A stretch of 64,000 nt of DNA, from positions 292,501-356,500 of the forward strand of contig NZ_VFOV01000001.1 of the NCBI RefSeq assembly GCF_006716315.1. Reading direction: 5' to 3'. The notes under the pieces are model-generated. The model did no database searches and was not told the origin of the DNA. It saw only the letters and a program-made list of their open reading frames with translations. Shown here in pieces: positions 35,413 to 39,171 of this stretch. How positions within the stretch are numbered: position 1 is the first letter of the stretch; each line of letters starts with the position of its first letter. The stretch is from Nocardioides albertanoniae. GTDB lineage: Bacteria; Actinomycetota; Actinomycetes; Propionibacteriales; Nocardioidaceae. Made by a program: the position numbers and the translations under genes.

Positions 35413-35457
35413 TCGAGGGGCAAGCCGATGCGGCTCCGGCCGTTCGTGTCGGTCACA

Positions 35458-35952
35458 ATGGTGTGCGTGTCGTCCGCTGAACCCACCTTCTACCGCCTCG
35501 CTCCCGCCGTGCAGGCACGCCTTCTCGGCGCTGCAGTCGTCGGCCTGGCACTCCTCGTCTTCGTCGGCACCGCCGTCGTCATCCTGGCCCGGATCGACTT
35601 CGCCTGGCTCTTCCTCCCGCTCGTGGTCGGCGCCGTCGGAGTGATCGGCTTCGGGTGGTGGCTCCGCAACAAGGCGTACGTCGTGCGCGCCAGCGCCCAG
35701 GGTTACCGGGTTGCGTTCGTGCGGGGTGCCGGGGTGCGCGAGGCCCGGTGGGTCGACATCCAGGAGGCCGTGACCACCATGCCCGGCGGCTCGCCGTGCC
35801 TGGAGCTGCGGCTCAAGAAGGGTGGCGCGACGATCATCCCCGTGACCATCCTGAGCATCGACCGCGAGCAGTTCGTCCGCGAGCTCCAGGGCCATCTCAA
35901 GGCCACGATCAAGCCCCTCGATCCCACCCCTGGGCCCGCTGAACCCTCCTGA
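35458..35952 (+). CDS. PH-domain-like two-TM membrane protein
   Basis: The roughly 164-residue protein starts with two hydrophobic helices (AVVGLALLVFVGTAVVIL and FAWLFLPLVVGAVGVIGFG) followed by a soluble beta-rich domain (about residues 70-150; YVVRASAQGYRVAFVRGAGVREARWVDIQEAV), the layout of actinobacterial PH-domain membrane proteins. Function is unknown. Start choice is uncertain between ATG 35458 and GTG 35467. A CRP-like site lies about 45 nt upstream. Confidence 0.75.
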   Translation: MVCVSSAEPTFYRLAPAVQARLLGAAVVGLALLVFVGTAVVILARIDFAWLFLPLVVGAVGVIGFGWWLRNKAYVVRASAQGYRVAFVRGAGVREARWVDIQEAVTTMPGGSPCLELRLKKGGATIIPVTILSIDREQFVRELQGHLKATIKPLDPTPGPAEPS

Positions 35953-36098: not shown

Positions 36099-36128
36099 GT
36101 TTGGCCCCCTTTACGAAGGGGGCCAAAC
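36099..36128 (+). terminator. Intrinsic terminator after tRNA-Ser(GCU)
   Basis: A 13-bp perfect stem, GTTTGGCCCCCTT / AAGGGGGCCAAAC, with a TACG loop is followed by CTTTT, giving a classic rho-independent terminator. The rest of the gap to 36269 is the leader of the small peptide gene. Confidence 0.92.
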
Positions 36129-36269
36129 CTTTTCTGACCTGCATCTTTACGCACTGCCCAATTCCGTACGGCGGAACCTGGGTTGGCTGTTACATGCGGC
36201 AGGCACCATACTTCTTGACGCAGGCCTCTCGGCGACATTCTCGGCCTCGAGACCACGAAGGGAAATTCT

Positions 36270-36452
36270 ATGAAGCTCGTACGCTCTGCGGCGGCTCTTG
36301 CTCTGGCCTCCGCCGCCATGACTGTCGGTCTGTTCGCGGCGTCCGCCCCTGCCCAGGCCGACACCAGCTGGATCGCCGGCCAAGACGACACCAGCTGGTT
36401 CGCTGCGAACGACACCAGCTGGATCACTGCTGGCGGCGACACCAGCTGGTGA
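36270..36452 (+). CDS. Secreted 60-residue peptide with four DTSW repeats
   Basis: The peptide has a typical signal sequence (MKLVRSAAALALASAAMTVGLFAASAPAQA, residues 1-30, with an AQA cleavage site), leaving a mature part of about 30 residues that is four DTSW tetrapeptides separated by 4-5 residues (linkers IAGQD, FAAN, ITAGG). The last DTSW is the C-terminus. All four are encoded by the identical 12-mer GACACCAGCTGG. AAGGGAAA lies 7 nt before the ATG. I do not recognise a described family. It faces a LuxR-like regulator gene. A role as signal or modified peptide is inference. Confidence 0.75.
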   Translation: MKLVRSAAALALASAAMTVGLFAASAPAQADTSWIAGQDDTSWFAANDTSWITAGGDTSW

Positions 36453-36458
36453 AGTCCA

Positions 36459-36508
36459 GCGGCTGACGGTGGTGATCCGTGGCGACACGGATCACCAGCA
36501 TCAGCCGC
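36459..36508. terminator. Hairpin between the DTSW peptide and LuxR-like genes
   Basis: The stem GGTGATCCGTG / CACGGATCACC (36471-36481 and 36486-36496) with a GCGA loop is extended by GCGGCTGA / TCAGCCGC. It lies between convergent genes and overlaps the last codons of the regulator. Confidence 0.75.
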
Positions 36509-37571
36509 GTGGCGGAGGTGTGTTGCCGCCTAGCTCGTCGGCTTCGGCGTCGCTGCGGCCGATCTCGTAGCCCAGCTGGAAACGGGTGTCTGCTCCGAAC
36601 TCGTCCTTGAGGTCGGAGACATAGCCGGCGTACGTACGCGGGCTCACGCCGAGGCGTTTCGAAGCCGCAGGGTCGGAGTGTCCTTCGACCAGCATGCGCA
36701 AGGTCATGGACCTCTGCTCGCCGGCGACTTCCTTCATCGTCGACGTGTCGGCCGCGGAGAACGGACGTGCCCGTTCCCAGGATCGTTCGTAGACATCGAC
36801 CAGATAGGCCACGACGGCAGGCTCGCGCACCGCGATCGCGGTGTCGATCCCGTCGGGTCCCGGGATGACGGCGACCCGGCGGTCGAAGATGAGGATCTTG
36901 TTGAAGAACTCGTCCAGCGTCCGGACTTCACCGCCCGCCTCCGAGACGGCAGAGACGTAGTCCCGAGTCGCCGCGTTGCGGCGGGCCGCATGCTGATAGA
37001 GCGTACGCATCGCCACGCCCCGCCCGAGGAGGGCAGCGTCCTTACGGGCGGTCTCTGCGAGCACGCTCGGATCGCGCGTGGCCTGGGGCTGAGCGGTGAG
37101 CGCCTCGAACTCGCACTCCGCAGCCAGGGAGTCGATGAACGGCTGGATCTGTGGCCGGTGGATGTTGGTGACGGCGGCGTGCTGATCGTCCGGCGCCGAT
37201 CGGCGCCAGGCGCCGTGCAGGGCGGTGAAGTCGTTCGCCCACTCCGCCGACTCGTGGAGGAGCCTGATCCCTTCTTGGGTCATGGGTGTGACGATCTGCG
37301 CCTGCACCGTTGTCGGGTCGACAGTCACCCAGGTGCCAGGATTCTCGTCGGGGTTGCGGACGAGACCGAGCTCCTCGAGCGCAGCCAGCGCGTCGGCGTA
37401 CTCTCCGCCCTCGCTGACCCGTGGGTCGGACACGGGGATCCCGCCCTGGTCCGAGATGAGTTCGAAGAGCTCGATGCCCTTGGCCTCGAACACTGCGCGC
37501 GTCTCGGACGCGTGCCCTCCGTCGGTCACGTTCTTCTCCTCGCCGGACGGCGTGGGTTGACGCTTGCTCAC
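36501..37571 (-). CDS. LuxR-type HTH regulator with a large N-terminal domain
   Basis: The 356-residue protein ends in a LuxR/GerE-like HTH (TLRMLVEGHSDPAASKRLGVSPRTYAGYVSDLKDEFGADTRFQLGYEIGRSD, about residues 290-340). The N-terminal part has a winged-helix-like segment (ELFELISDQGGIPVSD..YADALAALEELGLV, about 35-72) and a middle domain resembling the phospholipase-D-like region of some actinobacterial regulators (about 180-270, FFNKILIFDRRVAVIPG). The GTG at 37571 follows GGGGAGG. It converges on the DTSW peptide gene, which makes that peptide a candidate partner or target; this is inferred from proximity only. Confidence 0.82.
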   Translation of the reverse strand: MSKRQPTPSGEEKNVTDGGHASETRAVFEAKGIELFELISDQGGIPVSDPRVSEGGEYADALAALEELGLVRNPDENPGTWVTVDPTTVQAQIVTPMTQEGIRLLHESAEWANDFTALHGAWRRSAPDDQHAAVTNIHRPQIQPFIDSLAAECEFEALTAQPQATRDPSVLAETARKDAALLGRGVAMRTLYQHAARRNAATRDYVSAVSEAGGEVRTLDEFFNKILIFDRRVAVIPGPDGIDTAIAVREPAVVAYLVDVYERSWERARPFSAADTSTMKEVAGEQRSMTLRMLVEGHSDPAASKRLGVSPRTYAGYVSDLKDEFGADTRFQLGYEIGRSDAEADELGGNTPPPRG

Positions 37572-37887: not shown

Positions 37888-39066
37888 TCACGCCAGATCG
37901 GAGCGGTCCCCTCCACGCGCGGCTCTGACGCGGGCGACGGCCCCGAGGATCTCTGGCCGTGCCCGCCGGATGAACCGCGTCACCACGTGGTCCGCCCCAT
38001 ACCGTGTCTCGATCTCGTCCAGCCGATCCGCAGCGTCCACAGTCGTCCCGTCGGGGCCCGTCGTCATATCGCAGAAGCACACCGCGTCCTCGTAGTCCGT
38101 GGGAGGGCTCGCGAACTCGGAAAGCTCTGTGCTCAGGCCGCGTTCCTCTGCCTCCAGCACAGCGTAGGAATGGTGAGCCACCATCGATACGATCCGCTCG
38201 TCCCAACCTTCGCGTCGTAGGTGGCGTGCGCCATCGATCGCGTGCATTCCGGTGTCCACGAGTTCGGGGGCGTACCCGATGTCGTGAAGCCAGCATGCGG
38301 CCGCCAGGAGCTCGACGTCCAGCCGGAGATCCTCCCCAAGAGCCTCCGCCTTCTCTCCGACCGCCGACAGGTGTTGCCATCTACGGCCCAGCGGCTCAAC
38401 CAGCCGGCCGGCCTCATCCTTTGCCGCGCTCAGTAGGTCGGGCACTCGGCCAACGTCGGTGCTCGGCCATGATGCGTGCCTACGCTTCGCATGCCGAGAG
38501 GTGAGGCGCAGCATGCGCTGCATCGCAGGCAGCAAGCCACGGAGATGCTCTCGCTGGGTGAAGATCGTCCACGCCAAGCCCGCCGCAGCAACGATCGAGG
38601 TCAGCCCAGCAAAAAACAACGTCAGCCAGGTCGCCGGGCTCGACTCTCGAGTCTCGCTTGAGTCAACGGTCACGCTTTGACGCTCGACCTCGGCGTCGTC
38701 GTCATTCATCTGCGCGATCGCTTCCTTGATTCGTCGATCGACCTCATCCTCGGTCACGTTGTCGTCGCCAACTGGGATGTAGCAGGCCATCCGGGCCTTC
38801 GCCTCGTCGCTCGGCAGGCAGAGCCACTCGGGAGGAGTCTCGACATCGACATCGACTTCAACAGGCACATGGTGGATGCCCTCAGCGTCGGTCACGTAGC
38901 CGACGCCGGTCTCCACCTCCTTGTTCGGCCCCGTCTTGTTGCCATCGGCGTACGACGTCGTGATGCCGACGACGACGGCCGCCCCGACTGCCGCGCCGAC
39001 CAGGATCGATGCCGTGATCGCGACGACGTTGCCGAGGCTCGGTGGACCGTTTCGGCTGGGTGCCAT
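37888..39066 (-). CDS. Membrane-anchored HD-domain phosphohydrolase
   Basis: The 392-residue protein has an N-terminal TM (about residues 13-37), an acidic extracytoplasmic segment of about 100 residues containing two cysteines, a second TM (about 145-165), and a cytoplasmic HD domain. The metal ligands are all visible: HLSAVG, CWLHDIGYAP, MHAIDGARHL, MVAHHSY and CFCDMTTGPDG. HDIG-type proteins hydrolyse nucleotides or cyclic dinucleotides; the substrate is unknown. ATG 39066 has AAGG upstream; GTG 39096 is an alternative. The layout suggests an external signal controls an internal phosphohydrolase. Confidence 0.82.
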   Translation of the reverse strand: MAPSRNGPPSLGNVVAITASILVGAAVGAAVVVGITTSYADGNKTGPNKEVETGVGYVTDAEGIHHVPVEVDVDVETPPEWLCLPSDEAKARMACYIPVGDDNVTEDEVDRRIKEAIAQMNDDDAEVERQSVTVDSSETRESSPATWLTLFFAGLTSIVAAAGLAWTIFTQREHLRGLLPAMQRMLRLTSRHAKRRHASWPSTDVGRVPDLLSAAKDEAGRLVEPLGRRWQHLSAVGEKAEALGEDLRLDVELLAAACWLHDIGYAPELVDTGMHAIDGARHLRREGWDERIVSMVAHHSYAVLEAEERGLSTELSEFASPPTDYEDAVCFCDMTTGPDGTTVDAADRLDEIETRYGADHVVTRFIRRARPEILGAVARVRAARGGDRSDLA

Positions 39067-39171
39067 GATGCGGACCTTACGACCGCCGACACTCACCGCT
39101 GGCGGTTTCGTGAGAACTTTCGCTACTGACTCGAGGCGGGCCTTCGGCCGCGAGCGCGGCCTCCGGGGTAT

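Follow-up and report, generated by a model that had tools for sequence, protein, structure and literature searches.

The closest described systems are those of the RRNPP group, in which, according to the part of PMC10075063 devoted to them, a small precursor exported through Sec adjoins a cytosolic receptor and regulator of 250-500 aa; the criteria given there are a precursor of 10-100 aa, adjacent genes, a TPR receptor and binding of the peptide in the cytosol, and intragenic duplications in the precursors are also mentioned (PMC10075063). PlcR activates its own gene together with papR, PapR being imported by Opp (PMC4701985). In the NprR regulon, an NRPS and an InhA-type protease are found along with degradative enzymes such as the metalloprotease NprA (PMC3325205). 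The signals of Actinomycetota are placed among enzyme-made small molecules in the excerpt that treats them (PMC10075063), butyrolactones and cyclic or modified peptides are named in the corresponding portion of a review that calls the LuxR proteins there intriguing (PMC4748050), and for Streptomyces the relevant part of a 2026 review names butyrolactones only (PMC13220807).

The locus described here lies in a window of 64,000 nucleotides of Nocardioides albertanoniae, and its layout is like that of PlcR/PapR and NprR/NprX of the Bacillus cereus group, with a small peptide of the exported type that has a conserved core, a neighbouring regulator that is most likely cytosolic, a motif before the peptide gene and a predicted regulon that includes secreted proteases. 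The precursor of 60 aa, the receptor of 356 aa, the gap of 48 nt between them and the occurrence of the pair at 74 of 76 loci lie within the RRNPP sizes and adjacency. In contrast to RRNPP, the receptor has a TrmB-like core and a C-terminal HTH, the host phylum is Actinomycetota, and the core of the peptide is D-x-x-W in up to ten copies. To our knowledge, the operator here is unrelated to the RRNPP operators. Since no TPR appears in the Pfam list of the regulator at E up to 1, the circuit would work like RRNPP and not be a member of it, and the best reading is a circuit that operates in the manner of PlcR/PapR or NprR/NprX through a receptor unrelated to theirs. We consider it likely that the D-x-x-W peptide and regulator locus is an autoinducing peptide circuit acting on the peptide gene and on secreted proteases, and the precursor looks like an undescribed bacterial peptide signal. 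Neither a D-x-x-W peptide nor such a peptide-regulator pair is described among the literature matches listed (bioRxiv and most subscription papers lie outside this scope), and the peptide has no family above the Pfam and NCBIfam cut-offs; the initial annotation, too, knew of no described family of this structure.

Precursor and regulator in the window

The peptide gene (36270..36452, + strand) encodes a secreted-type micropeptide precursor that translates as MKLVRSAAALALASAAMTVGLFAASAPAQA followed by DTSWIAGQDDTSWFAANDTSWITAGGDTSW and the stop codon, the cleavage point between the two parts having been placed by eye. The predicted signal peptide (36270..36359, +; MKLVRS..APAQA), read from the sequence, has an AxA site and then D, and cleavage is predicted directly 5' of the first DTSW, which leaves only 30 residues with four DTSW units. 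These cores (36360..36371, 36387..36398, 36411..36422 and 36438..36449, all +), the fourth of which is the C-terminus of the precursor, are each encoded by the 12-mer GACACCAGCTGG with a spacing of 27, 24 and 27 nt, just as the initial annotation had described. The 12-mer is absent elsewhere in the window on both strands, and the looser pattern GAYACNWSNTGG has 34 matches in the whole host genome of 4.97 Mb, of which only these four lie less than 100 bp from each other. By eye, a Shine-Dalgarno-like GAAGGGA is seen 5' of the ATG. Export of the precursors through Sec is predicted from hydropathy, N-terminal Lys/Arg and the AxA site. Most relatives of the window precursor are about 37-90 aa long, the exceptions above 100 aa being L160 (109 aa) and five class-level precursors (115-132 aa). 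A protein search with the peptide gave two relatives only.

Upstream, a terminator-like hairpin 3' of tRNA-Ser (36099..36128, +) may form the upstream boundary of the peptide promoter, one such site being expected here by chance, and a candidate bidirectional terminator hairpin (36459..36508), seen by eye and missed by the T-run terminator scan, lies between the convergent genes. A syntenic neighbour of 174 aa (35428..35952, +), free of Pfam matches, was used as an anchor. An HD-domain protein with a membrane-like segment (37888-39096) is also found in the window and is unrelated as far as seen; its gene is flanked by a tRNA-Arg and by a gene that we take to be TerC-like.

The regulator gene (36501..37571, - strand) is convergent with the peptide gene and, judging from Pfam and profile matches, would encode a TrmB-like one-component regulator with a C-terminal HTH. 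The Pfam matches, an HTH near the C-terminus and DUF7436, are weak and all under the cut-offs, and neither the TrmB model nor the autoinducer-binding (AHL) domain is in the Pfam list of the regulator at E up to 1. The profile built from 34 homologues gives a weak match (E 0.001) to archaeal TrmBL2 (PDB 5box) over positions 28-260, and the regulator has a C-terminal HTH in addition. Members of the TrmB family sense sugars, and we know of no member that senses peptides. The C-terminal HTH is shared with the LuxR-type solos of Actinobacteria, as is the 'LuxR family' annotation that many homologues carry in databases, where a few are annotated as TrmB; the regulator differs from these solos in the missing AHL domain and in its partner peptide gene. 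Calling it LuxR-like, as the initial annotation did, suits the C-terminal HTH; the larger part of the protein is TrmB-like. PADLOC gave nothing for the regulator. Since its best 19-residue hydropathy window is 1.18, it is most likely a cytosolic protein.

Conservation of the pair and of its cores

The pair is conserved, its precursor is of the secreted type, and the cores are specific to each precursor amid changing spacers. Of 215 genomes of the same genus, 200 gave a regulator match at E 1e-60 or better, and the records of N. luteus and N. albus also carry the regulator. A looser threshold of 1e-25 detects it in 202 out of the 294 genomes sampled from the family, in 8 of 26 genera. Seventy-six Nocardioides loci were read, the window among them, for the most part those where the regulator match is strongest; in 74, a small ORF of the secreted type that bears the motif lies on the 3' side of the regulator. 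D-x-x-W is present in 72 of these peptides, the other two (L087, L090) having only T/S-S-W-G or T-S-W-G. Two scans combined found the peptide in 29 of 30 loci of seven other genera of the family, the sole miss being a short DNA piece (L154). The scans set different length limits and chose starts differently, so that their counts are not equal: L157 and L172 were found by one of them and L160 by the other only. A lack of conservation of the ORF or of its link to the regulator had been named in the initial annotation as an outcome that would refute it. This outcome was not seen: the pair is kept across genus and family, and the link reappears at class level in another gene order, the genes being convergent in the Nocardioides family and mostly divergent at class level.

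Fifteen genomes of the genus gave no regulator match. Nine of them were checked and the anchor gene was found in seven, in six of which no peptide lies beside it (one, L114, being near a contig end), and the seventh (G127) has two weaker regulator matches and a peptide. The two of the 76 Nocardioides loci in which the peptide was missed show other states of the pair, as judged by eye: in L035 (G019) the regulator is kept and the peptide ORF, MKKLTRRALPVAAAGPDHGRDTSWGGGS, has DTSWGGGS and no hydrophobic stretch, perhaps a natural loss of export, and in L104 (G168) transposase-like, foreign-looking DNA occupies the peptide site beside an intact regulator.

Of 394 genomes searched at class level with a profile at 1e-30, at most five regulator candidates being scored per genome, 72 carry the regulator family, 39 of them from one large-genome genus. 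Since 105 of the 110 plasmid records with a regulator match are from Streptomyces, this genus is by inference taken as Streptomyces. In the class-level set of 69 regulators in 56 chosen loci, a divergent secreted-type D-x-x-W ORF accompanies 27 regulators by a filter count that includes the weak DDDW and DDQW, and no divergent D-x-x-W peptide was found for the other 42. Nineteen of the class-level precursors have two or more D-x-x-W copies, with ten tandem DSTW in L286, nine DIAW in L298, seven DVGW in L297, five DPGW/DPSW in L302 and four DPVW in L199. Tandem cores are also found in several lineages of the family, such as four DTGW in L151, three DSGW in L158 and six DTGW in L160.

The position of the core relative to the cleavage site varies. 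D-x-x-W starts at most three residues from an AxA-like site in 65 of the 74 peptides from Nocardioides, and the predicted remnant after cleavage is often very short (DFVWSRAGR, DTSWGRSTR, DYSWQTVTRR). Family members outside Nocardioides often have the core at the C-terminus, and other precursors have it at the N-terminus; many cores have further residues after them, and several precursors end with -D-x-x-W-COOH. Many relatives have two Cys after the core (DTSWGCGGYCR), and the cores of the window's clade are without Cys. The closest relatives, with a regulator identity of 89%, have DTSWIVQADTSWLTGNDTSW and DTSWITKADTSWIAGKADTSW, in which the cores are kept with synonymous changes and the spacers are not.

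In 316 kb of control DNA from this family (64 loci remote from the regulator) no secreted-type small ORF has at least two D-x-x-W, and five loci have one with a single D-x-x-W; ORFs with two or more were found in 11 of 76 Nocardioides, 13 of 30 other-genus and 19 of 56 class-level regulator loci. Order-level paralogue loci gave, under a loose filter, at least one D-x-x-W in seven of ten, with two in one locus, so a single D-x-x-W under this filter is less telling; these paralogues (L061-L070) were rejected as members, no peptide having been accepted for them, and the same applies to the two paralogues of the host genome (L057, L058). Among X-x-x-W patterns with at least three copies, D is on top with 7 of 76, 4 of 30 and 12 of 48 loci, and any other X reaches at most 1. 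In a comparison of all 400 residue pairs, D..W is not the most frequent, the counts being dominated by common residues.

Of 23 precursors with at least three copies, 22 have the same two middle residues throughout, and these residues vary from one precursor to the next; 23 of the 24 such precursors were entered, L160 and the two-copy precursors being left out. Exceptions to this homogeneity are L302, the two-copy L166 (DTSW/DTAW) and the database relative P0002 (DTNW/DTSW/DTSW). Over all copy pairs, D, x and x differ synonymously 163 times and nonsynonymously 4 times in 627 comparisons, and for the spacers the corresponding figures are 87 and 346 in 552, and 100 and 401 in 627; since D is fixed by the search, the weight of the synonymous excess rests on the two middle residues. 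The four cores of the window show no difference among themselves, synonymous ones included.

A tree of 102 regulators was used for trait tests on the class-level ones with 300 shuffles. The presence of a multi-copy peptide follows this tree, with 6 changes against a shuffled mean of 16.7 and no shuffle as low (0/300). For the 19 multi-copy precursors, core position 2 requires 8 changes (mean 11.1, 2/300) and the whole core 11 (mean 12.6, 13/300), and nothing was seen for core position 3 at class level.

The operator-like motif and secreted metalloproteases

A conserved motif precedes the peptide gene, co-occurs with the regulator and is present at secreted proteases. Searched for words, the DNA 5' of the peptide genes yielded TGCAATGCA and similar ones. 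Among the peptide promoters, TGCA-N6-TGCA-N-TGCA occurs, in either direction, in 37 of the 61 from Nocardioides and in 22 of the 27 from other genera, and the short TGCA-N-TGCA in 38 and 23 of them, where eight other tetramers of the same form reach 0-3. The short form starts 93-163 nt before the peptide ATG, and the typical distance of the motif to the peptide gene is about 110 nt. In the window, the operator-like site TGCATCTTTACGCACTGCC (36140..36158, +) starts 130 nt before the ATG and has 2 mismatches in 12 to the long motif. A matrix of 68 peptide-promoter sites was run over 54 loci, cut into 914 windows. Of its 22 top-scoring windows, 21 were at the 5' end of M4/M10-like genes, 7 of these 21 protease loci having been found through the motif and 14 independently of it; the window site scores 11.6, exceeded by 20 of the 914 background windows, all in protease loci.

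The palindrome TTCCGTACGGCGGAA (36162..36176, +) adjoins the operator-like site and is kept in the window's clade; TTCCGTACGGCGGAA(C) has one more exact copy in the host genome (G000:C1:165123) and is also found in relatives. The palindrome GTCCGTACGNCGGAAC was tried as the operator of this clade; with no more than 2 mismatches allowed, it has 24 matches in the host genome where the control has 12, and the ORFs next to the other 1-mismatch site that was opened (L425) were not recognised as proteases. At class level, TGCA-N-TGCA (TGCANTGCA) was found in 0 of 27 peptide promoters, and CAGGAACATGATGCA is present in 14 of 27 peptide-bearing intergenic regions. Its left part, CAGGAACATG, is in 15 of these 27 regions against 0 of 42 regulators without peptide, the 15 carriers being largely one regulator clade. 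A Nocardioidaceae form, TGCAGGAA-N2-TGCA-N-TGCA, occurs in 15 of 101 promoters there and resembles the CAGGAACATG type; since the spacing differs, a relationship between the class-level and Nocardioidaceae motifs is offered as a suggestion only.

The exact long motif has 66 matches in 24 regulator-bearing genomes, mostly chosen for a motif at the peptide promoter, against 20 for the reversed pattern, overlapping sites being counted singly; by our assignment from coordinates, 31 of the matches belong to the peptide gene, which has one or more in 23 of these genomes, and the other 35 fall outside it. Twenty-four family genomes with no regulator match have only 3 matches, confined to 2 genomes, while the reversed pattern has 14 there. 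Because the motif co-occurs with the regulator, we infer that the regulator is the protein that binds it.

Twenty motif places away from the peptide gene were read. Eight of them precede secreted metallopeptidase genes, the motif lying about 95-116 nt before matrixin/astacin-like (L363, L364, L366, L367), M4 thermolysin (L370, L372) and M43 (L373) genes and about 166 nt before an immune-inhibitor-A M6 gene (L375), and one more (L369) is behind an M43 gene. The motif also precedes a PhoD phosphatase gene (L377), stands beside a GTPase gene where relatives have a matrixin-like gene (L365, L368), and in L371, L374 and L380 adjoins DUF4439-like genes that are related to each other and are not secreted proteases, a HAD-like gene being present at two of these places; no obvious target was seen at L361, L362 (host genome), L376, L378 and L379. 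Of the 41 M4/M10-like protease genes, 14 are preceded by TGCANTGCA, where 0.08 would be expected, 7 of these 14 not being motif-found; since this concerns only 14 of 41 loci, the regulon would vary. The host genome has three exact long-motif matches at two places, none upstream of secreted proteases, and its M4 gene (G000:C1:83766-85316) has only the short TGCAATGCA, 138 nt upstream. One of the two places (L361, G000:C1:2097765-2097793) is an exact overlapping double motif between two convergent genes and adjoins methionine aminopeptidase.

The proposed circuit, its alternatives and its wider distribution

In the proposed circuit, the precursor would be exported through Sec, and signal peptidase, in multi-core precursors together with extracellular proteases, would free short D-x-x-W peptides that build up outside and re-enter the cell, probably by an oligopeptide permease. 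Inside, the peptide would bind the cytosolic TrmB-like/HTH regulator, and the loaded regulator would act at TGCA-N6-TGCA-N-TGCA operators, with the peptide gene itself as one target, closing a feedback loop, and the secreted metallopeptidase genes (M4, M6, M10/M12-like, M43) as another in a number of species. Tandem cores may serve as a higher dose per precursor. Export, maturation and uptake are predicted from the features of the sequences, as is the sign of regulation, and binding of the peptide to the regulator is suggested by the pairing, the homogeneity of the cores and the regulator tree. The interpretation in the initial annotation is supported in part: the idea of a signal that the regulator would read agrees with the evidence from operator, feedback and regulon.

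The motif before the peptide gene would also be consistent with plain regulation of a secreted effector (antimicrobial, adhesin or structural) by a regulator that senses nothing, and multivalent repeats could serve extracellular binding; this reading has a small but appreciable chance. However, one peptide gene per regulator is found across two gene arrangements, both genes are missing together in six genomes, homogeneous and precursor-specific cores are not expected of a generic effector, and precursors leaving 9-10 residues give little room for a structural role. The motif common to the peptide genes and the M4, M6, M10-like and M43 peptidase genes would also suit peptides that act as endogenous inhibitors of these metalloproteases, protecting the cell or timing protease activity. 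Snake venom Trp tripeptides inhibit venom metalloproteinases, and their precursors have a tandem layout; as here, short Trp peptides are linked with metalloproteases, without homology, the link here being a shared promoter motif, and the precursors ending with the core at the free carboxyl terminus would fit such a role. Core position 2, in turn, follows the class-level regulator tree and not a common protease target, further residues follow many cores, and no secreted metalloprotease stands beside the regulator in eight annotated plasmid loci (one has a prolyl aminopeptidase). We regard inhibition as unlikely.

The initial annotation had also considered cutting or cross-linking at Trp, Asp or Thr, for which no support was found at the window locus. 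A RiPP core, cross-linked or otherwise modified, for instance at Trp or at a Cys pair where relatives have one, would account for the repeated Trp and for the two Cys, but no modification enzyme was noticed among the ORFs at the window locus and the window's clade has Cys-free cores, which makes this explanation quite improbable; as to cutting inside the Nocardioides peptides, signal peptidase alone would leave about 9-15 residues in many of them. The single 12-mer behind all four window cores could finally be read as a functionless repeat array, a chance or recently amplified ORF, which is hardly credible given that the closest relatives keep DTSW with synonymous changes between different spacers; a chance ORF is ruled out by the controls, the core synonymy and the counterpart in 74 of 76 loci.

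We lean slightly towards a broader peptide language of Actinobacteria, with TrmB-like/HTH receptors, many of them paired with tandem D-x-x-W precursors whose two middle residues would be the address, with TGCA- or CAGGAACATG-type operators, and with public goods (the secreted metalloproteases of Nocardioidaceae) and perhaps Streptomyces antibiotic clusters under its control. Such a linear code, gene-encoded and widespread, with its receptors next to it and its operator predicted, would lend itself directly to testing, and simple synthetic triggers could be made for the proteases and possibly for silent antibiotic clusters. Streptomyces-like genomes have several such receptors per genome (up to five were scored in each). 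Since about two fifths of the class-level regulators have a peptide, and 42 of the 69 as well as the ten order-level paralogues have no accepted one, the fold need not sense such peptides and may sense other things as well.

A link to antibiotic clusters is suggested by one plasmid pair beside NRPS and one beside beta-methylarginine genes. The first, WP_114059216.1 of Streptomyces globosus, has three DTGWGAP and adjoins MbtH and NRPS; the second, WP_327687178.1 of Streptomyces sp. NBC_00467, has DSAWG and lies on the strand of the regulator in front of the beta-methylarginine genes; and WP_327136189.1 of NBC_01343 has DTSWG, all three being annotated as 'hypothetical protein'. At two plasmid loci an AfsA-related gene adjoins the regulator. 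Streptomyces gamma-butyrolactone signalling is cell-cell signalling in the same phylum, as the circuit here would be; the signal here would be ribosomal and not the product of an enzyme.

In eight class-level loci (L283-L287, L290, L297, L310) two to four paralogous regulators stand side by side, one member of the set having a D-x-x-W peptide gene and the others belonging to separate clades with no accepted peptide. Possible variant cores were seen in a 65-aa ORF of a Streptomyces yangpuensis plasmid (L323, 658-855), which has no D-x-x-W and ends with TTSW, and in a divergent secreted-type ORF (L316, 3290-3562) that ends with STIWG.
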